DNA of 57,029 bases from Blastococcus sp. (GTDB lineage Bacteria; Actinomycetota; Actinomycetes; Mycobacteriales; Geodermatophilaceae), in contig JAOPWJ010000022.1 in the NCBI GenBank assembly GCA_025965715.1, forward strand, positions 1 to 57,029. The letters run 5' to 3'. Position 1 is the stretch's first letter. Every line of letters begins with the position of its first letter. The translations under genes were made by a program, and so were the position numbers. The notes under the pieces are model-generated. The model worked only from the letters and a program-made list of their open reading frames with translations, was not told the DNA's origin and made no database searches. Shown piece by piece: positions 5,254-43,316 of this stretch.

Positions 5254-6591
5254 TCAGCCGGACAGCACCGCCCATCCCCCGGCGGGCAACTGCACCCGCG
5301 TCCAGGGCGACGACGGCTCAGACACCGTGGCGGACCCGGCGAGCACCTCGCCGGCCGACGAGACGGGGACGTCGGCCGGCGCGTGCCCGATGTTGAGGGC
5401 CACGACCAGCCGGCCCTCCTCGGCGACGACCTCGTACGACACCTGCTCGTTGGCCAGGTGCATGACATGGGTGCGCGCCTCGTGCAGCCAGCGGTGCCGG
5501 CGGCGAAGACCGATCAGTTCCTGGTGCAGCCGGTAGGTCGGCAAGCCGAGGGTGGAGAGCTCGTCGGGTCGGTCGGGGAAGGCCGGGCGGACGGCGTCGT
5601 CCCCACCGGCTCGGTCCTCCTTGATGCCGCGGAAGGCGTGCTCGTCGCCGGAGTAGATCGCCGGCGTCCCCGCGGTCGTCAGCAGCACGACGAGGGCGTG
5701 CGCCAGGTGCCGCTCATCGGTGAGCCGGCTGGCCAGGCGGGTGACGTCGTGGTTGCCGAGAAAGGTCAGCGGCACGAAGGTGTCGAGCAGCTCGCCGTGG
5801 CGGTGCAGCGCGTGCGCCAGCTCGAAGAAGTTGCGGTCGTTGAGCGAGCTCCAGATCGCCTTCCACAGCTCGTACTGCGTCACCGCATCGACGCCCGACT
5901 CCCGCACGAACGTGGCGTAGTCGCCGTGCAGCACCTCGCCCACCACGTACGCCTGCGGGTGCGCCTCACGGACCCTCGGCAGCACCGCGGCCCAGAACGA
6001 CGTCGGGACGGCGTAGGCCGCGTCGAGCCGCCAGCCATCGGCGCCCCGGTCCAGCCAGTGGTTCATCACAGTCACGACGTGGTCCACGACGGCAGGTTCG
6101 TCGTGGTTGAGCGCGACGAGAGCGCCGTGCCCCTCGAAGTCGGCGGCCCGGGGCTCCACACCGGGCGCCCACGGCCGTGGCCACGACAGCCGGAACCAGG
6201 ACGCCGTCGGCGCGGACGGGCCCTGCTCGAGCACCGCCCGGAACGCCGGGTGCGATCTGCCGACGTGGTTGAAGACGCCGTCGAGCAGCACCCGCAGTCC
6301 GCGGCTGTGCGCGGCGGCGATCAGGGCGTCGAAGTCGGCGTCCGTGCCCAGCCGGGGATCGATCCGCAGGTGGTCGACCGTGTCGTAGCCGTGCGTCTCG
6401 GACGCGAAGACCGGGCCGAGTGCGATGCCGGACGAGCCCAGCTCGACGGCGTAGCCGAGCCACGGCTCCAGCTTGCCCAGGCGCGGCGTGACGACGCCGT
6501 CCGGGGGAGTCTCGCGCTGCGCCCCCACGAACCCCAGCGGGTAGACGTGCCACCAGATCGCGTCGGTGACCCAGTCCGGGGGGTAGGGCAC
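5254..6591 (-). CDS. GH13 alpha-amylase-family glycoside hydrolase
   Basis: A 445-residue single-chain GH13 enzyme acting on alpha-glucans or oligosaccharides. All four conserved regions are visible: DGVFNH (Asp104), GWRLDAAY (nucleophile Asp190), GEVLHGDY (acid/base Glu219) and FLGNHDV (Asp282). There is a short C-terminal beta-domain (about 370-445) and no signal peptide, so it is probably intracellular. At 445 residues it is shorter than typical secreted amylases and lacks a carbohydrate-binding module. Its specificity (glucosidase, maltogenic enzyme or transglycosidase) cannot be settled. It stands alone, with no sugar transporter beside it. Confidence 0.92.
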   Translation of the reverse strand: MPYPPDWVTDAIWWHVYPLGFVGAQRETPPDGVVTPRLGKLEPWLGYAVELGSSGIALGPVFASETHGYDTVDHLRIDPRLGTDADFDALIAAAHSRGLRVLLDGVFNHVGRSHPAFRAVLEQGPSAPTASWFRLSWPRPWAPGVEPRAADFEGHGALVALNHDEPAVVDHVVTVMNHWLDRGADGWRLDAAYAVPTSFWAAVLPRVREAHPQAYVVGEVLHGDYATFVRESGVDAVTQYELWKAIWSSLNDRNFFELAHALHRHGELLDTFVPLTFLGNHDVTRLASRLTDERHLAHALVVLLTTAGTPAIYSGDEHAFRGIKEDRAGGDDAVRPAFPDRPDELSTLGLPTYRLHQELIGLRRRHRWLHEARTHVMHLANEQVSYEVVAEEGRLVVALNIGHAPADVPVSSAGEVLAGSATVSEPSSPWTRVQLPAGGWAVLSG

Positions 6592-6698
6592 CGAGCCTCC
6601 TGACGGCGCACGGCGGATACGAGGCGCCGACGCTACTGGGAAGTCGATCTCCGCCTGCCGTCAGGGTCGCCTGACGCCGGCCCTGACGACCGTCGACC

Positions 6699-6737
6699 GG
6701 AGTGGCTCGGGCGCGGTAACCGCTGCCGAGCCACTCC
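6699..6737 (-). terminator. Hairpin after the FAH-family gene; copy 2 of the 39-bp family
   Basis: Arms 6699-6710 and 6726-6737 are a perfect 12-bp inverted repeat, with a small inner GCGG/CCGC stem around TAAC-like centre bases. On the minus strand it begins one base after the TAG stop of the FAH-family gene, so it probably terminates the leftward catabolic operon before GH13. It has the same 39-bp length and GGAGTGG/CCACTCC ends as the elements at 5189 and 42343. Confidence 0.75.
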
Positions 6738-6738
6738 A

Positions 6739-7617
6739 CTAGGGGCGGGCGAGCCTCCGGGCGACGTCGATGGCCGCCACCGGGTTCGACAGCGTGCCGA
6801 TCCCCTCCACGCTGATCGCGACGACGTCGCCGTCGGCCAGGGTGAAGTCGAGCTCCGGCACGATGCCGGTGCCGGTCGAGAGGACGGCGCCCTCGGGGAA
6901 GTCCTGGGCCCTCGCCAGCCAAGCGATCAGCTCAGGAAGCTGCCGGCGCATCCGGGCCGTGCTCGTCGTCCCCTCGAACACCGTCGCACCGCCGCGGGTG
7001 ACGACGCAGGAGATGCCGAGCGCCATCGGGTCCGCCACCTCCCACGCCGGACGGATGCCCGGGGCGAGCGCGCAGCTGCCCGCGTAGACCTTGGCCTGCG
7101 GCAGGTAGAGCGGGTTCTCGCCCTCGATGTCGCGCGAGGAGACGTCGTCGCACACCGCGTAGCCGAAGACCTCTGCGCCCGCGGTCACGACGACGGCGAG
7201 TTCCGGCTCGGGCACTGTCACCGCGCAGTCGGGGCGGACCGCGATGGGGTCGCCGTCGGTGACCACGCGCCAGGCGACGGACTTGAAGAACAGCTCCGGG
7301 CGCTCGGCTGCGTACACCCGGCTGTAGACGTCCTGGACCTGGCTCTCCTCGACCCTGGCGTCCATCGACCGGCTGTAGGTGACCCCCGAGGCCCACACCT
7401 CGGTCAGCCCGTCGACCGGCGGCAGCAGCCGGACCTCGGCCACCGCGACCCCAGTCCCGCCCGACGCGGCCTCCACCTGCTGGCGGGCCTGCTCGAGCGG
7501 GAGCGCCAGCAGTGCTCCCATCGACTCCACGGCGGCGACCGGCCGAACCTCGCCGTCGGCGAGGACACCCACCCGGGCCGGCCCGTTCCCCGACCGGTAC
7601 CGGACGACGTGGCTCAC
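6739..7617 (-). CDS. Fumarylacetoacetate hydrolase-family protein, AraD1/KdaD-like
   Basis: A 292-residue FAH-fold protein and the last gene of the leftward catabolic operon. Metal-ligand and active-site blocks are visible: VPEPELAVVV and DDVSSRDIEGENPLYLPQAKVY, followed by GSCALAPGIRP. The SRD-IEGENPLYLPQAK block with ASGVTYSRSMDARVEES resembles, from memory, the AraD1/KdaD branch, which dehydrates 2-keto-3-deoxy sugar acids, rather than true fumarylacetoacetases. The GTG start at 7617 overlaps the crotonase TGA (GTGA), implying coupled translation. The exact reaction is an inference; another 2-oxo-acid hydrolase or decarboxylase is possible. Confidence 0.85.
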   Translation of the reverse strand: MSHVVRYRSGNGPARVGVLADGEVRPVAAVESMGALLALPLEQARQQVEAASGGTGVAVAEVRLLPPVDGLTEVWASGVTYSRSMDARVEESQVQDVYSRVYAAERPELFFKSVAWRVVTDGDPIAVRPDCAVTVPEPELAVVVTAGAEVFGYAVCDDVSSRDIEGENPLYLPQAKVYAGSCALAPGIRPAWEVADPMALGISCVVTRGGATVFEGTTSTARMRRQLPELIAWLARAQDFPEGAVLSTGTGIVPELDFTLADGDVVAISVEGIGTLSNPVAAIDVARRLARP

Positions 7618-37875: not shown

Positions 37876-38598
37876 TCACGTCGCCTGGGTCGGCTCCCCG
37901 AGGCGCCCGGCGCAGGACGCTGAGCCGAGCCAGGCGTGCGGCGCGCCCTGGTAAGACCATCCCAGGCGAGGCCGTTGACCGCTCGTCCACAGCGCCGGCA
38001 CCCGCTTGTCGCCGGCCCGCGAACCGAGCAGGGAGAACGCGTTCCGCGCCTTCAGCACGCCCGGGTCGGACACCAGCACGGCCAGGCCCTCCGCGATGGT
38101 CAGCGGCGAACGGCCGCCGCCCAGCAGCTGGGGGAGGACCTCGGCCGGCGCCTGCCCGAGGGTGTCCGCGCCGGTGTCGACGTCGAGGAGCAGATACGGG
38201 GCGGTCGGCACCTCCAGGCCCGGCAGCGGCCGGAACCGCCCGACGTCGTCGTCGTCCATCGTGGTGAAACCGGCCCCGCCGACCGTGTGGACGCCCGCGA
38301 GGACGTCGGAAACGGCGACGTCGGGGACCACGACGACGAACGGGATGCCGGCGGTGCCGTCGACGGGTGGCGGAAGCAGGTCGCGCAACGGCTCGAGGAA
38401 CGCCCGAAAGCAGGTGTCGGGCAGATCCAGGTGCGCCGGCAGACCGGCCAGGGTGAGCGCGTCGACCTGCCGGTCGAATTCGAGCTCCGCCTCCGTGGGG
38501 GTGGTCAGTGGCCACCCGGTCAGTGGCAACCCGGTCAGTGGCAACCCGGTCACGGGCAGACCGGACATGGGCAGACCGGACATGGGCAAGGCGGACAT
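37876..38598 (-). CDS. DUF5701-like hypothetical protein with N-terminal pentapeptide repeat
   Basis: A 240-residue soluble protein of unknown function. The body contains FDRQVDALTLAGLP, FVVVVPDVAVSDVLAGV, YLLLDVDTGADTLG, RSPLTIAEGLAVLVSDPGVLKA and RVPALWTSGQRPRLGWSY, which I associate with DUF5701. The first about 33 residues are a repeat of the type (M/V/L)(S/T)GLP, coded by the tandem repeat at 38506-38595. ATG 38598 is chosen because GAGAGGGG lies just upstream; a GTG at 38667 would add 23 residues. It overlaps nothing and follows the aldolase-like gene on the same strand. Confidence 0.75.
   Translation of the reverse strand: MSALPMSGLPMSGLPVTGLPLTGLPLTGWPLTTPTEAELEFDRQVDALTLAGLPAHLDLPDTCFRAFLEPLRDLLPPPVDGTAGIPFVVVVPDVAVSDVLAGVHTVGGAGFTTMDDDDVGRFRPLPGLEVPTAPYLLLDVDTGADTLGQAPAEVLPQLLGGGRSPLTIAEGLAVLVSDPGVLKARNAFSLLGSRAGDKRVPALWTSGQRPRLGWSYQGAPHAWLGSASCAGRLGEPTQAT
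38506..38595 (-). repeat. Six tandem 15-bp units inside the DUF5701 gene start
   Basis: Plus-strand units begin at 38506, 38521, 38536, 38551, 38566 and 38581. Units 2 and 3 are identical (CAGTGGCAACCCGGT); units 4 to 6 form a second subtype (CAYGGGCARRSCGGA). Each codes one pentapeptide on the minus strand, so copy number can vary without frameshift. Confidence 0.9.
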
Positions 38599-38667
38599 CG
38601 GACCCCTCTCGTCCGGACGCCCCCCAGCCCGGAGGGCGAGGGGTGTCGGGGAACGATCAGCGGCCAC

Positions 38668-39912
38668 TCACGAGTCCCCCGGCCGCCGGCCAGCCAGCTT
38701 ATCCAGATCGGCGCGGTCCGGGCCCCCTTCCGACCGAACTTCTGCCAGATCCAGGGCGCCGCAGTCCAGGCCGCGCAGTACCAGCACGGCCAGGGCGCGA
38801 GCGGTCGCCGGCTCGTCCAGCACCCCTCCCGCCCTCCGGTCCAGGTACACCGCCAAGCGTTCGGCAGCGGCCGGGAGCGCGGCCCGGAAGAACGCGTAGG
38901 TGGCGGTGTAGCGGGTGACCAGCTGTGCCGGGTGCAGGTCCCAGCCCTGGTAGAAGCCGTGCTCCAGCGCCCGGCGGACCAGCGCGGCGTGCAACCGCCA
39001 CGCGGCCCTCACCTGGTCGCGCGGGCCGACGGGGAGCACGTTGGTGGAGCCGTCGACCGCATGTGCCCCGGTGCCGGCCACCGCCACCTGCATGACGTGC
39101 TTGGCGAAGTCGGCGGCCGGGTGGTCCGAGGACTGCTGCGCCGCCGCGATGCCGAGTGAAGCGCTGTAGTCGTACGTGCCGTAGTGCAGGCCGATCAGGC
39201 GGTGACCGGCGGCATGCACCATCCGGGCCGCCGTGGCAGCGCCGTCCGGGCCCAGCACCGACTGCGGCGTCTCGATCTGCAGCTCCAGGTCGAGCCGGAC
39301 GCCGTGGGCGTGCTCCAGGGCCTCGAGCACGGGCAGGAAGGCGCGCACCTGCTCGACGTCGGTCACCTTGGGCAACGTGACGACCGATCGCAGCGGCAGG
39401 GACGCGTCCGCCGCGGCCTGGCACTCCCCCAGGCAGGCCAGGAAGAGGTCGAGGCTGCGGACGGCGCGGTGGCGGGTCGGCGCCTCGAGCGACTTGACCC
39501 GGATCCCGAAGGACGGCGGCACCCTGCCGACGGCCGGGTCGGCGGTCAGGGCCCGCGCCGCCCGCAGGACGTCGTCGTCCTCGGCGTCCGCCGTACCGCG
39601 GTAGCCGTCTTCCGCGTCGACCCGCAGGTCCTCGATCGGCTCCGTCGCGAGCTTGGCCCGTACCCGCGGCAGAACCTGCTCGAGGAGCGCGGGGGCGAGC
39701 CCGAGATCGGGCAGCCCGTGCTCGTCGAGGGCGGCCAGGGCGGCCGTTCCCCACCCCGCGGCCAGCCCCGGCACGACGGCGTCGGCGGGCACGTAGCAGG
39801 TGTGCACCGGCTGCCGATCCGGCCGGTCGCCGGGAAAGGCGGCCAGCCGGGCGGCGTCGACCGGGGCCAGACGGCGGTCGAGCTCGGCGTAGACGCCCTG
39901 GTCAAGCCGCAT
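38668..39912 (-). CDS. DUF6986 HpcH/HpaI-type aldolase-like protein
   Basis: A 414-residue PEP/pyruvate-domain (citrate lyase beta/HpcH-like) TIM barrel. Visible blocks: DLRVDAEDGYRG (acidic metal-site region), LPKVTDVEQVRAFL, LDLELQIETPQSVLG, GHRLIGLHYGTYDYSASLGI and HGFYQGWDLHPAQLVTRY. It abuts malate synthase (its ATG overlaps the malate synthase stop) and faces the urate genes, as I recall for this family in other actinobacteria. A lyase step on a ureide-derived or glyoxylate-condensing compound is plausible; the reaction is not established. Confidence 0.85.
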   Translation of the reverse strand: MRLDQGVYAELDRRLAPVDAARLAAFPGDRPDRQPVHTCYVPADAVVPGLAAGWGTAALAALDEHGLPDLGLAPALLEQVLPRVRAKLATEPIEDLRVDAEDGYRGTADAEDDDVLRAARALTADPAVGRVPPSFGIRVKSLEAPTRHRAVRSLDLFLACLGECQAAADASLPLRSVVTLPKVTDVEQVRAFLPVLEALEHAHGVRLDLELQIETPQSVLGPDGAATAARMVHAAGHRLIGLHYGTYDYSASLGIAAAQQSSDHPAADFAKHVMQVAVAGTGAHAVDGSTNVLPVGPRDQVRAAWRLHAALVRRALEHGFYQGWDLHPAQLVTRYTATYAFFRAALPAAAERLAVYLDRRAGGVLDEPATARALAVLVLRGLDCGALDLAEVRSEGGPDRADLDKLAGRRPGDS

Positions 39913-41483
39913 CAGTCGATGAGCTCGTACGCCGGCAGGGTCAGGAAGTCGGGGAACTCCTCGGCCAGGGCCACCTGCTCGAGCAGCCGGCGGGCGTCAT
40001 CGAGGTTCTCCAGCTGGCCGATCCCCTCCACCTCCTCCGCGACCACGCGGCGGACCAGCTCCTCGGTCACCGTCTCCCCCGTGTCCAGTTCCACCCCCGC
40101 GTGCACCCACTGCCAGATCTGCGAGCGGCTGATCTCGGCGGTGGCGGCATCCTCCATGAGGCCGTGGATGCCGACCGCGCCGTTGCCGGCCAGCCAGGCG
40201 GCCAGGTACCGCAGGGCGACCTCGACGTTGCCCCGCAACCCGGCCATGGTCCGGTCACCGGGGACGCCGGCCACGTCCAGCAGTTGCTCCGGCGCGACGC
40301 GCACGTCCTCGCGCCGGCGGTCCAGCTGGTTGGGCCGGTCGCCGAGGACGCCGTCGAAGACCTCTCGGCAGAGCGGCACCAGGTCGGGGTGGGCCACCCA
40401 GGAGCCGTCGAAGCCGTCGCCGGCCTCGCGGGCCTTGTCCTCGCGGACCTTGGTCAGCGCGCGCTCGTTGGCCTCGGGGTCGCGGCGGCTCGGGATGGCG
40501 GCGGCCATCCCGCCGATCGCCATCGCGCCCCGGCGGTGGCAGACGCTGACCAGCTGCTCGGTGTAGGCGCGCATCATCGGCGCGGTCATCGTCACCGCGC
40601 CCCGGTCGGGCAGCACGAAGTCCGGTCCGGCGTCCCGGAAGACCTTGATCACGCTGAACAGGTAGTCCCACCGGCCGGCGTTGAGCCCGGTGGCATGGCT
40701 GCCGAGCGCGTGCAGCATCTCCTCCATCTCGAAGGCGGCCGGGATCGTCTCGATCAGCATGGTCGCCCGGATCGAGCCCGCCGGGAGGTCGAGCACCTGC
40801 TCGGCGTGGTCGAACACCAGCGCCCACAGCCGCGCCTCCAGGGCGCCTTCCATCTTGGGCAGGTAGAAGTACGGCCCGCTGCCGCGGTCGAGCTGCTCGC
40901 GGGCGTTGTGGAACAGGTACAGGCCGGCGTCGACCAGCGCGCCGACCGTCGGCTCCCCGTCGACCAGCAGGTGGCGTTCGGGCAGGTGCCAGCCGCGGGG
41001 ACGCGGCACGATCGTCGGCAGGTCGCCGTCCTCCCGTAGCCGGTACTCCCGTCCGTCCGGGGCGGTGTGCGCGAGGGTCCGGCGGACGGCGTCCCGCAGC
41101 ACCACCTGCCCGCCGACGACGTTGCGCCAGTGCGGGGTGTTGGCGTCCTCCAGGTCGGCCAGCCAGACGTTGGCGCCGCAGTTGAGCGCGTTGATGGCCA
41201 TCTTCGGCTCGGTGGGGCCGGTGATCTCCACCCGGCGGTCGACCAGACCCCGCGGCGGCGGCGGCACCCGCCACTGGCCGGCACGGACGTGGGCGGTCGC
41301 CTCGCGGAAGTCGATCCGGCGGGCGGTGGCGATCTCGGCCCGCCGGGCGGCCCGGGCGGCCAGCAAGGCGTCGCGGTGCGTGCCGAAGCGGGCCTGCAGA
41401 TCGGCGAGGAAAGCCAGCGCCTCCGGCGTCAGGACCTCCTCGCCCCGCTCGACCGGCGGTCCCTCCACGCGGACGTCCACCAT
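39912..41483 (-). CDS. aceB: Malate synthase A
   Basis: A 523-residue malate synthase A (usual length about 530) condensing glyoxylate with acetyl-CoA. Conserved blocks: INALNCGANVWLADLEDANTP, GPYFYLPKMEG, ATMLIETIPAAFEMEEMLHAL, LNAGRWDYLFSVIKVF, VTMTAPMMRAYTEQLV, RRGAMAIGGMAAAIPSR and SRSQIWQWVHAGVELDTGETV. ATG 41483 has GAGGAGAGG upstream. No isocitrate lyase is adjacent; instead it diverges from urate-degradation genes 45 bases away, suggesting that it consumes glyoxylate made from allantoin. Confidence 0.95.
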   Translation of the reverse strand: MVDVRVEGPPVERGEEVLTPEALAFLADLQARFGTHRDALLAARAARRAEIATARRIDFREATAHVRAGQWRVPPPPRGLVDRRVEITGPTEPKMAINALNCGANVWLADLEDANTPHWRNVVGGQVVLRDAVRRTLAHTAPDGREYRLREDGDLPTIVPRPRGWHLPERHLLVDGEPTVGALVDAGLYLFHNAREQLDRGSGPYFYLPKMEGALEARLWALVFDHAEQVLDLPAGSIRATMLIETIPAAFEMEEMLHALGSHATGLNAGRWDYLFSVIKVFRDAGPDFVLPDRGAVTMTAPMMRAYTEQLVSVCHRRGAMAIGGMAAAIPSRRDPEANERALTKVREDKAREAGDGFDGSWVAHPDLVPLCREVFDGVLGDRPNQLDRRREDVRVAPEQLLDVAGVPGDRTMAGLRGNVEVALRYLAAWLAGNGAVGIHGLMEDAATAEISRSQIWQWVHAGVELDTGETVTEELVRRVVAEEVEGIGQLENLDDARRLLEQVALAEEFPDFLTLPAYELID

Positions 41484-41528
41484 TCGCCGCACCTCTCCTC
41501 GACCGGGCCGGGCTGGCATCCTCTCACC

Positions 41529-42026
41529 GTGGCCGCCCTCGACGACTTCAACGACGAGCCCGCCGAGCAGGCCGTCCGGGCGCTGCGGGCGTGCAACGCC
41601 GCCACTCGCTTCGCGGCGGAGGTGGTGGCCGGCCGCCCCTACCGGGACGCCGAGACGCTCGTCGCCCGCGCCGAGGAGGTGGCCCGCGGGCTGCCCTGGA
41701 GCGAGGTCGCCATCGCGCTGGCGGCCCATCCGCGGATCGGCGACCGCGTGGCGGGCTCCACCGCAGCGGCGGCCGCGTCCCGCCGGGAGCAGCGCTCGAT
41801 GTCGGAGGCCGACGACGCCGCCCGGGCCGCTCTCGCCGAGGGCAACCGCGAGTACGAGGAGCGCTTCGACCACGTGTTCCTGATCCGTGCGTCCGGGCGG
41901 TCAGCGGAGGAGATGCTCGCCGAGCTGCGACGACGGCTGACCAATGACGAGCAGGCGGAGCGCAGCGAGGTGACCGAGCAACTGGCGCAGATCACCGGGC
42001 TGCGGGTGAGAGCTCTCGTGTCATGA
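41529..42026 (+). CDS. uraD: 2-oxo-4-hydroxy-4-carboxy-5-ureidoimidazoline (OHCU) decarboxylase
   Basis: A 165-residue helical enzyme for the third step of urate to (S)-allantoin conversion. The catalytic His67 is in AAHPRIGD, and the SxxEQ motif (Ser84-Gln88) and FLIRASGRSAEEMLAELRRRL are present. GTG 41529 has no clear ribosome site, so a leaderless start is possible given the 45-base divergent gap to malate synthase. Its stop overlaps the uraH start (ATGA). Confidence 0.93.
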   Translation: MAALDDFNDEPAEQAVRALRACNAATRFAAEVVAGRPYRDAETLVARAEEVARGLPWSEVAIALAAHPRIGDRVAGSTAAAAASRREQRSMSEADDAARAALAEGNREYEERFDHVFLIRASGRSAEEMLAELRRRLTNDEQAERSEVTEQLAQITGLRVRALVS

Positions 42027-42340
42027 GCATCTCGACGCACGTCCTGGACGCCGTCCTGGGGCGGCCCGCCGCAGGGATGACCGTTCGCCTGTTCGCCGGG
42101 GACGCGCTGCTGGCCGAAGGGGTGACCGACGGCGACGGCCGGTGCCGGCTGGCGGAGGGAGCGACCGTAATCGGAATCCACCGCCTCGCCTTCGCGACCG
42201 GTCCGTGGTTCACCGAGCAGGGCCGGGGAACGTTCTATCCAGAGGTCGTGCTGACGTTCGCGGTCCTCGAGCCCGGCGACCACCACCACGTCCCGCTGCT
42301 GCTGAGCCCCTACGCCTACTCGACGTACCGCGGCTCCTGA
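42023..42340 (+). CDS. uraH: 5-hydroxyisourate hydrolase (transthyretin-like)
   Basis: A 105-residue transthyretin-fold enzyme for the second step of urate breakdown. Signatures: N-terminal STHVLDAVLGRPA with the active His6, YPEVVLTFAV, HHHVPLLLSPYAYSTYRGS with the terminal YRGS tetrapeptide. No signal peptide, so cytosolic. ATG overlaps the uraD stop. A hairpin begins immediately after the TGA, before the urate oxidase gene. Confidence 0.95.
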   Translation: MSISTHVLDAVLGRPAAGMTVRLFAGDALLAEGVTDGDGRCRLAEGATVIGIHRLAFATGPWFTEQGRGTFYPEVVLTFAVLEPGDHHHVPLLLSPYAYSTYRGS

Positions 42341-42383
42341 GTGGAGTGGATTCGTGCACGTCACCGCGACGGATCCACTCCAC
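42341..42383. terminator. Hairpin between uraH and urate oxidase; copy 3 of the 39-bp family
   Basis: Arms 42341-42351 and 42373-42383 are a perfect 11-bp inverted repeat that extends by four more pairs including one G-U. It starts at the base after the uraH stop and ends 27 bases before the urate oxidase ATG. The core 42343-42381 is 39 bp, and its left half matches the element at 5189 at the first 15 bases. It may attenuate read-through into the urate oxidase gene. Confidence 0.7.
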
Positions 42384-42410
42384 AAGGTTCCACGTGCAAC
42401 AGTGCCGCCC

Positions 42411-43316
42411 ATGGCGATCGTGCTCGGACCGAACCAGTACGGAAAGGCGGAGGTCCGGGTCGTCGCAGTCGACCGCAGCGTCTCCCGGCACACGCTGGTC
42501 GACCTCAATGTCAGCTCCAGCCTGCGCGGTGACTTCGCCGCGGCGCACACCGCCGGTGACAACGCCCACGTCCTGACGACGGACGCGCAGAAGAACACGG
42601 TGTTCGCCTTCGCCCGGGACGGGATCGACTCCCCCGAGGCGTTCGCGCTCCGGCTGGCGACGCACTTCGCCCGCTCCTTCGACTGGGTCACCGGAGCCAG
42701 GGTCGAGGTCGAGTCCTACGGCTGGGAGCGGATATCGGTCGCCGGCGTCGAGCACGACCACTCGTTCCGCCGGGCCGGCGGCGAGGTGCGGACGGCGGTC
42801 GCCACCGTGGGCGGGGACGGCGTCCACGTGCTCGCCGGCCTCACCGGCCTCGTCGTCCTCAAGACCACGGGCTCGGAGTTCTGGGGCTATCCGGTCGACC
42901 GCTACACCACCCTGCCCGAGACCCGGGACCGCGTCCTGGCCACCGCCGTCACCGCCCGCTGGCGCTACACGGGGACGGATCCGGAGTTCGACAGCACCTT
43001 CGCCGGGGTGCGGAACGTCCTGCTCGAGGCCTTCGCCTCCACCCACTCCCTGGCCCTGCAGCAGTCGCTGTTCGCGATGGGCGAGGCGGTGTTGGAGCGG
43101 TTCCCCGACGTGGCCGAGATCCGCATGTCCATGCCCAACAGGCACCACTTCCTGCAGGACCTCGCGGCGTTCGGCCTCGACAACTCCCTCGACGGCGACG
43201 GCGCAGTCGTCTACCACGCCGACGACCGCCCCTACGGGCTGATCGAGGGCACGGTTCTGCGGGACGACGTCCCTGCGGCCGAGGTGGCCTGGCTCGGGAC
43301 CCCCGGCTTCTGCTGA
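42411..43316 (+). CDS. Urate oxidase (uricase, cofactor-independent)
   Basis: A 301-residue uricase converting urate and O2 to 5-hydroxyisourate, the first step feeding UraH and UraD. Marks: VLGPNQYGKAEVRV (charge-relay Lys12), the TDAQKNT loop (active-site Thr), ARVEVESYGWERI, LKTTGSEFWGYPVDRYTTLPET and MPNRHHFLQDL. ATG 42411 opens the conserved start; a longer frame from 42354 would run through the hairpin and is not favoured. The ribosome site is weak. Unlike many uricases it has no C-terminal peroxisomal-like SKL. Confidence 0.95.
   Translation: MAIVLGPNQYGKAEVRVVAVDRSVSRHTLVDLNVSSSLRGDFAAAHTAGDNAHVLTTDAQKNTVFAFARDGIDSPEAFALRLATHFARSFDWVTGARVEVESYGWERISVAGVEHDHSFRRAGGEVRTAVATVGGDGVHVLAGLTGLVVLKTTGSEFWGYPVDRYTTLPETRDRVLATAVTARWRYTGTDPEFDSTFAGVRNVLLEAFASTHSLALQQSLFAMGEAVLERFPDVAEIRMSMPNRHHFLQDLAAFGLDNSLDGDGAVVYHADDRPYGLIEGTVLRDDVPAAEVAWLGTPGFC

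Follow-up and report, generated by a model that had tools for sequence, protein, structure and literature searches.

DUF6986 is probably an actinobacterial (S)-ureidoglycolate lyase, releasing urea and glyoxylate by EC 4.3.2.3 chemistry, and is unrelated in sequence to the known lyase AllA/DAL3. We describe it from a 57,029-nucleotide stretch of Blastococcus sp. DNA (GCA_025965715.1, contig JAOPWJ010000022.1, positions 1 to 57,029; hereafter the window), in which its gene lies beside genes for urate catabolism. The reading rests on gene neighborhood, co-occurrence across genomes, the near-absence of AllA and AllD, the fold and residue conservation, and from it we infer the substrate, metal, products and proton donor.

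Allantoicase converts allantoate to ureidoglycolate and urea, and (S)-ureidoglycine aminohydrolase (AllE) forms ureidoglycolate and ammonia. The allantoicase and ureidoglycine routes diverge at allantoate and rejoin at ureidoglycolate. Purine breakdown in Actinomycetota runs through allantoin, but for ureidoglycolate hardly any of the sampled genomes have AllA or AllD. In a single sample of 197 genomes of the class Actinomycetes, searched for seven families, AllA (PF04115) was found in three, two of them below 33 bits, and AllD passed its cut-off in none. AllA was also found in none of 11 genomes checked outside the class. The one clear AllA homolog in the sample (82 bits; L189, at G340:C1:799345) is located beside xanthine-dehydrogenase-like genes, and the class-sample search did not find DUF6986, allantoicase or AllE in that genome. 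PMC3793230 names the AllA/DAL3 lyase, a plant-type amidohydrolase and the AllD dehydrogenase as ureidoglycolate enzymes, and casts doubt on an unrelated bacterial 'UGL'. An Arthrobacter genome paper reports growth on allantoin, yet no obvious genes leading from allantoate to glyoxylate.

DUF6986 occurs in genomes that can make ureidoglycolate and have no AllA. A genome was counted as a producer if it contained allantoicase or AllE over the cut-off. Because the PF22484 cut-off also matches partial CitE-like paralogs, DUF6986 was counted in the class sample at E ≤ 1e-20 and weaker PF22484 matches were dropped (83 of 246 genomes pass the family cut-off, only 19 of them with matches better than 1e-100). 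Matches to AllE (TIGR03214) below the curated cut-off, which accounted for 30 of the 43 genomes with matches, were short and partial and were dropped as other cupins. Malate synthase A (aceB) was counted at E ≤ 1e-100, and six of the 103 such genomes had no match over the family cut-off. On these counts DUF6986 is present in 68 of the 197 genomes, allantoicase in 57, AllE in 13, uricase in 78 and malate synthase A in 103. Allantoicase and AllE never occur together. DUF6986 is present in 66 of the 70 producers and in 2 of the 127 non-producers, leaving four genomes with a producer only and 125 with neither. The Jaccard index with DUF6986 is 0.92 for producers, 0.78 for uricase and 0.57 for aceB. 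DUF6986 tracks the ureidoglycolate-making enzymes more closely than it tracks malate synthase or uricase. Split by malate synthase, the counts of both, DUF6986 only, producer only and neither are 60, 2, 1 and 40 in genomes with aceB and 6, 0, 3 and 85 in those lacking it; for the 91 genera they are 30, 0, 1 and 60. Fisher p-values on such tables ignore relatedness. Seven genera have both states visible, with DUF6986-minus members taken only from among the matches listed in the family searches; here DUF6986 and producer agree in every genome seen, and the genus g188 disagrees. Since the two producer routes rejoin at ureidoglycolate and DUF6986 follows both, ureidoglycolate is the proposed substrate. 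For glyoxylate, the next compound, consumers are already known: AceB in 62 of the 68 DUF6986 genomes and gcl genes in some loci.

The two genomes with DUF6986 and no producer fall one each in genera g6 and g227. In one of them, G378, only an N-terminal DUF6986 remnant is left (95 residues with an in-frame stop, 69% identity to a Streptomyces-like copy), and the family search counted no allantoicase or AllE; this is a co-loss of DUF6986 and producer and counts in favor of the lyase. In the other, G377, the gene is on a short contig (10.8 kb) in an assembly of 850 contigs. Outside the class, a search of 225 genomes of the phylum that covered DUF6986 and allantoicase and left out AllE resulted in nine genomes with both, one with DUF6986 only (a contig-edge fragment), one with allantoicase only and 214 with neither.

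In the window, DUF6986 is part of a compact divergent locus:

38668..39912, minus strand: DUF6986 protein (414 aa), a CitE-like TIM barrel and proposed (S)-ureidoglycolate lyase (PF22484, 493 bits)
39912..41483, minus strand: malate synthase A (aceB, 523 aa), the proposed glyoxylate consumer (TIGR01344, 703.6 bits, cut-off 594.5; three malate synthase domains)
41484..41528: divergent intergenic region of 45 bp between two start codons
41529..42026, plus strand: 2-oxo-4-hydroxy-4-carboxy-5-ureidoimidazoline (OHCU) decarboxylase (uraD; TIGR03180, 164.8 bits, cut-off 139.4)
42023..42340, plus strand: 5-hydroxyisourate (HIU) hydrolase (hiuH/pucM; TIGR02962, 109.8 bits, cut-off 87.45)
42411..43316, plus strand: urate oxidase (uox; TIGR03383, 330 bits, cut-off 168.4)

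On the minus strand, the stop of aceB and the start of DUF6986 share one base. The uox open frame, which ends at 43316, could start at GTG 42354 or ATG 42411, the latter being more likely. A preliminary description of this DNA had placed DUF6986 and malate synthase A opposite uraD-hiuH-uox across 45 bp, and the coordinates and family matches confirm this. It had also reported no isocitrate lyase. We likewise found none (PF00463) in the window's own assembly, which at 3.55 Mb is about 80% complete and leaves the absence unproven; as a positive control, the search matched PF00463 in 8 of 14 genomes. The allantoicase of this genome is on another contig (C151; locus L186), adjoining an allB homolog. 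A DUF5701 gene (37876-38667) lies directly downstream of DUF6986 in the window and was detected after DUF6986 in many Blastococcus loci.

The same association recurs in relatives. A collection of 84,980 species genomes held 213 confirmed relatives, of which the best 80 were kept, a set biased to close relatives, and neighborhoods were counted over at most 10 kb on each side of DUF6986. Going by title, the 55 loci L031-L085 come from Geodermatophilaceae apart from a few, among them a mislabelled 'Bacillus' and a 'Frankiales' metagenome-assembled genome, and L086-L110 are other actinobacteria. Among named genomes, the closest DUF6986 proteins are from Geodermatophilaceae: that of strain URHB0062 is 82% identical, and those of the listed Blastococcus genomes are 75-80% identical. 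Because uraD, hiuH or uox is near DUF6986 in 74 of the 80 loci, and one of these or aceB in 79 (the exception being Streptomyces L092), the arrangement is not due to chance. Of the 80 loci, 46 have a full-length aceB upstream of DUF6986 and in the same orientation, and in 45 of these the gap does not exceed 441 bases; a looser count of 49 includes L091, a match of 25% identity, and remnants in L031 and L041. Between uraD and DUF6986 in the 55 loci, full-length aceB is present in 24 and only a remnant in two. In the other 29 no aceB was detected, and DUF6986 faces uraD directly across 27-281 bases. Thus, the tie to the purine genes survives the loss of aceB. Many of these actinobacteria at least keep the aceB-DUF6986-uraD genes together. 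The two remnants are at L031:9597-9956 and L041:9759-9869, next to a full-length DUF6986; there aceB seems to be in decay, unlike DUF6986.

More distant members are found in wider ureide clusters that contain, by TBLASTN, allantoinase, allantoicase, AllE, xanthine dehydrogenase-like and guanine-deaminase-like genes together with NCS1/NCS2 transporters and IclR regulators. The Arthrobacter locus L087 reads uraD-hiuH-uox-DUF6986-allE-hyi-like-allB. In G418, a genome of 1.5 Mb in which uricase was not found, AceB, AllB, allantoicase and DUF6986 are contiguous on one strand. A plasmid collection held five records with DUF6986, all from Actinomycetota. In a Tsukamurella plasmid the gene overlaps that of AllE within a xanthine-to-ureide cluster, and in a Gordonia plasmid it lies between a thioesterase gene and a urease operon, the only urease gene seen adjoining DUF6986, urease having been outside the genome-wide searches. 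In a Paenarthrobacter plasmid it lies between an NCS1 transporter and a polysaccharide-deacetylase-family gene, which we take to be a PuuE-type allantoinase. Within the class sample, DUF6986 and the producer gene are at most 12 kb apart on one contig in 38 of the 66 genomes with both, one gene being used where a genome has two allantoicase genes; in the remaining genomes, which include the Streptomyces-like genus g6, the distance is larger or the two are on separate contigs.

These results change part of the first interpretation of the locus. The preliminary description had assigned DUF6986 to purine/ureide catabolism, had suggested checking its co-occurrence with allantoin genes, and would have withdrawn the assignment had the family been mostly apart from purine genes. 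The loci examined bear the assignment out, with the Streptomyces-like genus as an exception, and the co-occurrence holds in the 197 genomes as given above. Its route from purine-derived glyoxylate to malate is plausible in view of the 46 relatives in which full-length aceB precedes DUF6986. Its suggestion that DUF6986 catalyzes a C-C step tied to malate synthase does not agree with the 29 of 55 loci in which DUF6986 stands beside uraD without aceB, nor with the genome-wide counts, where DUF6986 follows the ureidoglycolate-forming enzymes whether or not aceB is present. A role as a partner of malate synthase only is ruled out by these loci and the stratified counts. Ureidoglycolate-type substrates had appeared there as an assay option only; C-N cleavage of ureidoglycolate fits better than a C-C step.

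The fold of DUF6986 was not evident from a single sequence. A phmmer search of the PDB with the window protein alone returned only a chance match, and an alignment profile was needed: a profile of 40 DUF6986 sequences matched the CitE-like protein 3r4i (e-value 9e-6) and the malyl-CoA lyase 4l9y (e-value 2e-5). The AlphaFold2 model (mean predicted local distance difference test 87.3, predicted template modeling score 0.87) superposes on 4l9y with Z 26.7 and a root-mean-square deviation of 2.5 over 288 residues at 20% identity, and reaches Z 19-27 with malyl-CoA lyases, CLYBL, CitE and malate synthases. As modeled, the protein is a TIM barrel of the CitE/malate-synthase type. Pfam assigned it only PF22484 and a sub-threshold HpcH_HpaI match, with no M20 metallopeptidase-like domain. 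Scans of Pfam and NCBIfam gave no match to the malate synthase domains, MS_TIM-barrel or TIGR01344, or to PF04115. No NCBIfam model (June 2026) was passed by the eight DUF6986 members scanned. The malyl-CoA lyase model NF041626 has an equivalog cut-off of 500 bits, far above the 20.1 bits of the window protein and the 18.6-49.4 bits of seven relatives.

According to PMC3832036, Glu141 and Asp168 of the Rhodobacter sphaeroides malyl-CoA lyase Mcl1 bind Mg, and Glu44 and Asp45 hold its waters. Arg76 together with Asp42 positions the ligand and possibly removes the proton of the substrate hydroxyl, and Asp299 of the lid takes or gives a proton at carbon. In a hidden Markov model alignment to 4l9y, the residues Glu141, Asp168, Glu44, Asp45, Arg76 and Asp42 correspond to E214, D248, E101, D102, R138 and D99 of DUF6986. 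All six, and D366, are invariant across 64 DUF6986 sequences, one of them from the window and the other 63 with 43-64% identity to it. Other positions set the family apart from ten CitE-like (malyl-CoA-lyase-like) proteins from the phylum sample. The DUF6986-invariant residues R97, H243, Q260 and D325 differ in 10, 7, 9 and 10 of the ten comparators, being present in 0, 3, 1 and 0. At position 140, 62 of 64 DUF6986 sequences have Lys and all ten comparators have Asn; at position 36, next to the first strand, 63 of 64 have Val, Ile or Leu and all ten have Arg. It is a guess that R97, H243, Q260, D325, K140 or V/I/L36 bind urea.

A mechanism can be proposed by analogy. PMC3832036 proposes that malyl-CoA lyase deprotonates a Mg-bound 2-hydroxy acid, that the C-C bond breaks to give glyoxylate, and that an aspartate protonates the enolate. 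With a ureido group in place of the acetyl-CoA arm, the same steps would release urea. The 2-hydroxy acid end of ureidoglycolate would bind Mg2+ held by Glu214 and Asp248, and Arg138 with Asp99 would orient it. Deprotonation of the metal-bound hydroxyl would break the C-N bond and leave Mg-bound glyoxylate, and the lid residue Asp366, or its acidic neighbor Glu367, would protonate the leaving urea. The organism of the window would then convert urate via HIU, OHCU, allantoin and allantoate to ureidoglycolate (by allantoicase), and DUF6986 and AceB would follow in that order.

The proposed enzyme has partial counterparts among known systems. Like Mcl1 (PDB 4L9Y) and CitE-like proteins, it has a TIM barrel with a lid, the residues for Mg and glyoxylate and, by one of two alignments, the residue for proton transfer at the lid. 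Unlike Mcl1, it is about 95 residues longer (414 vs 318), and its genomic context is ureide catabolism. AllA/DAL3 would share its reaction, ureidoglycolate to urea and glyoxylate, and its place in the pathway, but has no sequence match to it; AllA is reported in PMC3793230 to be nickel-dependent, whereas DUF6986 has CitE-type Mg-site residues. Malate synthase A and the haloarchaeal malate synthase (PDB 3OYX) share the superfamily fold (Z 20-23) and the glyoxylate ligand, but malate synthase A has no domain match to DUF6986.

Several observations weigh against a ureidoglycolate lyase. Phylogenetic profiles do not distinguish an enzyme for ureidoglycolate from one for its next product, glyoxylate. 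DUF6986 may bind CoA, and the thioesterase gene directly upstream of it in Gordonia would fit a malyl-CoA route. The lid aspartate Asp299 pairs with the invariant D366 by hhalign and with E367 by MAFFT. In the Streptomyces-like group (f5/g6), DUF6986 is megabases from allantoicase or on another contig, in a conserved neighborhood of unrelated genes; there, therefore, the link is supported by co-occurrence alone. The genome-wide gap covers AllA and AllD, the M20 ureidoglycolate amidohydrolase having been outside the search, and AllD-family relatives below the cut-off are present in 36 of the 197 genomes, the best of them (223 bits against 496) in the window's own genome. Four genomes of the class (G038, G074 and G384, all of genus g2, and G260) and one outside it (G086) contain allantoicase without DUF6986 or AllA; thus, another solution for ureidoglycolate seems to exist. 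In two of these genomes, G074 and G384 (loci L184 and L185), allantoicase adjoins a polysaccharide-deacetylase-like gene, a racemase-like gene and an NCS1 transporter. Rubrobacter xylanophilus is reported in PMC4016543 to lack all known enzymes for this part of the pathway, and a carbamoyltransferase route was proposed for it. Actinobacteria therefore need not share one ureidoglycolate solution.

The strongest rival is a glyoxylate-consuming acyl-CoA enzyme, which has the same phyletic expectation as the lyase. DUF6986 would then be of the malyl-CoA-lyase or malate-synthase type and condense purine-derived glyoxylate with an acyl-CoA, beside AceB or replacing it. Its nearest folds are malyl-CoA lyases and CitE-like proteins, the glyoxylate and Mg residues are kept, aceB often precedes it, and there is the thioesterase gene of Gordonia. 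Such an enzyme would duplicate AceB in 62 of the 68 DUF6986 genomes, however, and 41 aceB genomes have no DUF6986. Judged by AllA and AllD, nearly all these genomes would then have no known gene for converting ureidoglycolate to glyoxylate, and the comparators' Arg by the first strand and Asn140 are replaced in DUF6986. We consider it unlikely. A use of glyoxylate in some other aldol or condensation reaction, e.g., a CoA-independent aldolase serving detoxification, is more improbable still. The conserved CitE-like Mg and glyoxylate residues suit it, glyoxylate is a reactive end product, and some clusters, as in Lentzea, contain other glyoxylate-route genes (gcl, glxR, hyi). The Lentzea clusters with both aceB and gcl nevertheless retain DUF6986. 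A second unknown enzyme would also be needed for ureidoglycolate.

An action earlier in the pathway, between urate and allantoate, or an accessory role to those enzymes, could account for the frequent uraD, hiuH or uox neighbors, and allantoin and allantoate are likewise common to both producer routes. Against this, 13 uricase genomes with neither allantoicase nor AllE also have no DUF6986, and four producer genomes without uricase carry it, which disfavors a part in the uricase step. Among the loci examined, many carry allB, a dedicated gene for the allantoin step, beside DUF6986. We give this slightly less weight than the aldolase and regard it as very doubtful. The least probable alternative, to which we attach hardly any weight, is that an M20-type amidohydrolase or non-enzymatic decay removes ureidoglycolate and that DUF6986 is a co-regulated passenger. 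It draws on the M20 enzymes having been outside the genome-wide searches and on the allantoicase genomes that do without DUF6986 and AllA. A passenger is unlikely to be present with producers in 30 of 31 genera, or to keep its catalytic residues in every sequence.

The noncoding parts of the locus contain two candidate regulatory elements:

41513-41528: CTGGCATCCTCTCACC, the uraD-side half of the 45-bp gap, which recurs in many relatives (among the gap sequences of the 24 relatives with full-length aceB)
42387..42400, plus strand: GTTCCACGTGCAAC, a near-palindromic candidate operator just upstream of uox, present as an exact copy

CTGGCATCCTCTCACC may be a promoter element. Of the 53 uox-bearing loci of L031-L085, 43 have GTTCCACGTGCAAC upstream of uox with no more than two mismatches. 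Although similar to the parS core, it keeps a position linked to uox. A further copy, with one mismatch, is found within the allB homolog of the window's genome (L186:8127). Between hiuH and uox there is also an imperfect 15-bp inverted repeat (42341-42355 and 42369-42383), and a few relatives have other inverted repeats at this spot (L055, L060, L064, L072, L079). In L040 a 301-aa open reading frame (6552-7457) is inserted there, with gaps of similar length in L048 and L065. Its motifs hint at the arginase/ureohydrolase family, and it possibly represents another ureide or urea step.

Extending the proposal beyond the window's relatives, we lean, a little less firmly, toward the whole DUF6986 family being an independent CitE-fold ureidoglycolate lyase that closes the purine-to-glyoxylate pathway in most ureide-degrading Actinomycetota, by both routes and with the Streptomyces-like genomes included. 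Pfam presently lists a domain of unknown function, and three annotated plasmid records read 'aldolase/citrate lyase family protein'. We found no paper naming DUF6986 in the open-access literature, and no CitE-like protein assigned to ureidoglycolate in open-access titles and the beginnings of abstracts, a search that left most subscription journals outside. The reaction and the superfamily are already known; their combination, if true, would be new as far as the literature searched. To our knowledge, DUF6986 would be the first member of the CitE superfamily that breaks a C-N bond. The AllR-controlled allantoin regulon of Streptomyces coelicolor reportedly links allantoin genes and malate synthase. 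If the assignment is true, 66 of the 70 sampled producer genomes would gain an enzyme for ureidoglycolate, the 'aldolase/citrate lyase family protein' label would be corrected, and the place of malate synthase beside purine genes would be easier to explain. A C-C lyase scaffold would have been adapted to C-N cleavage via a shared Mg-glyoxylate state.

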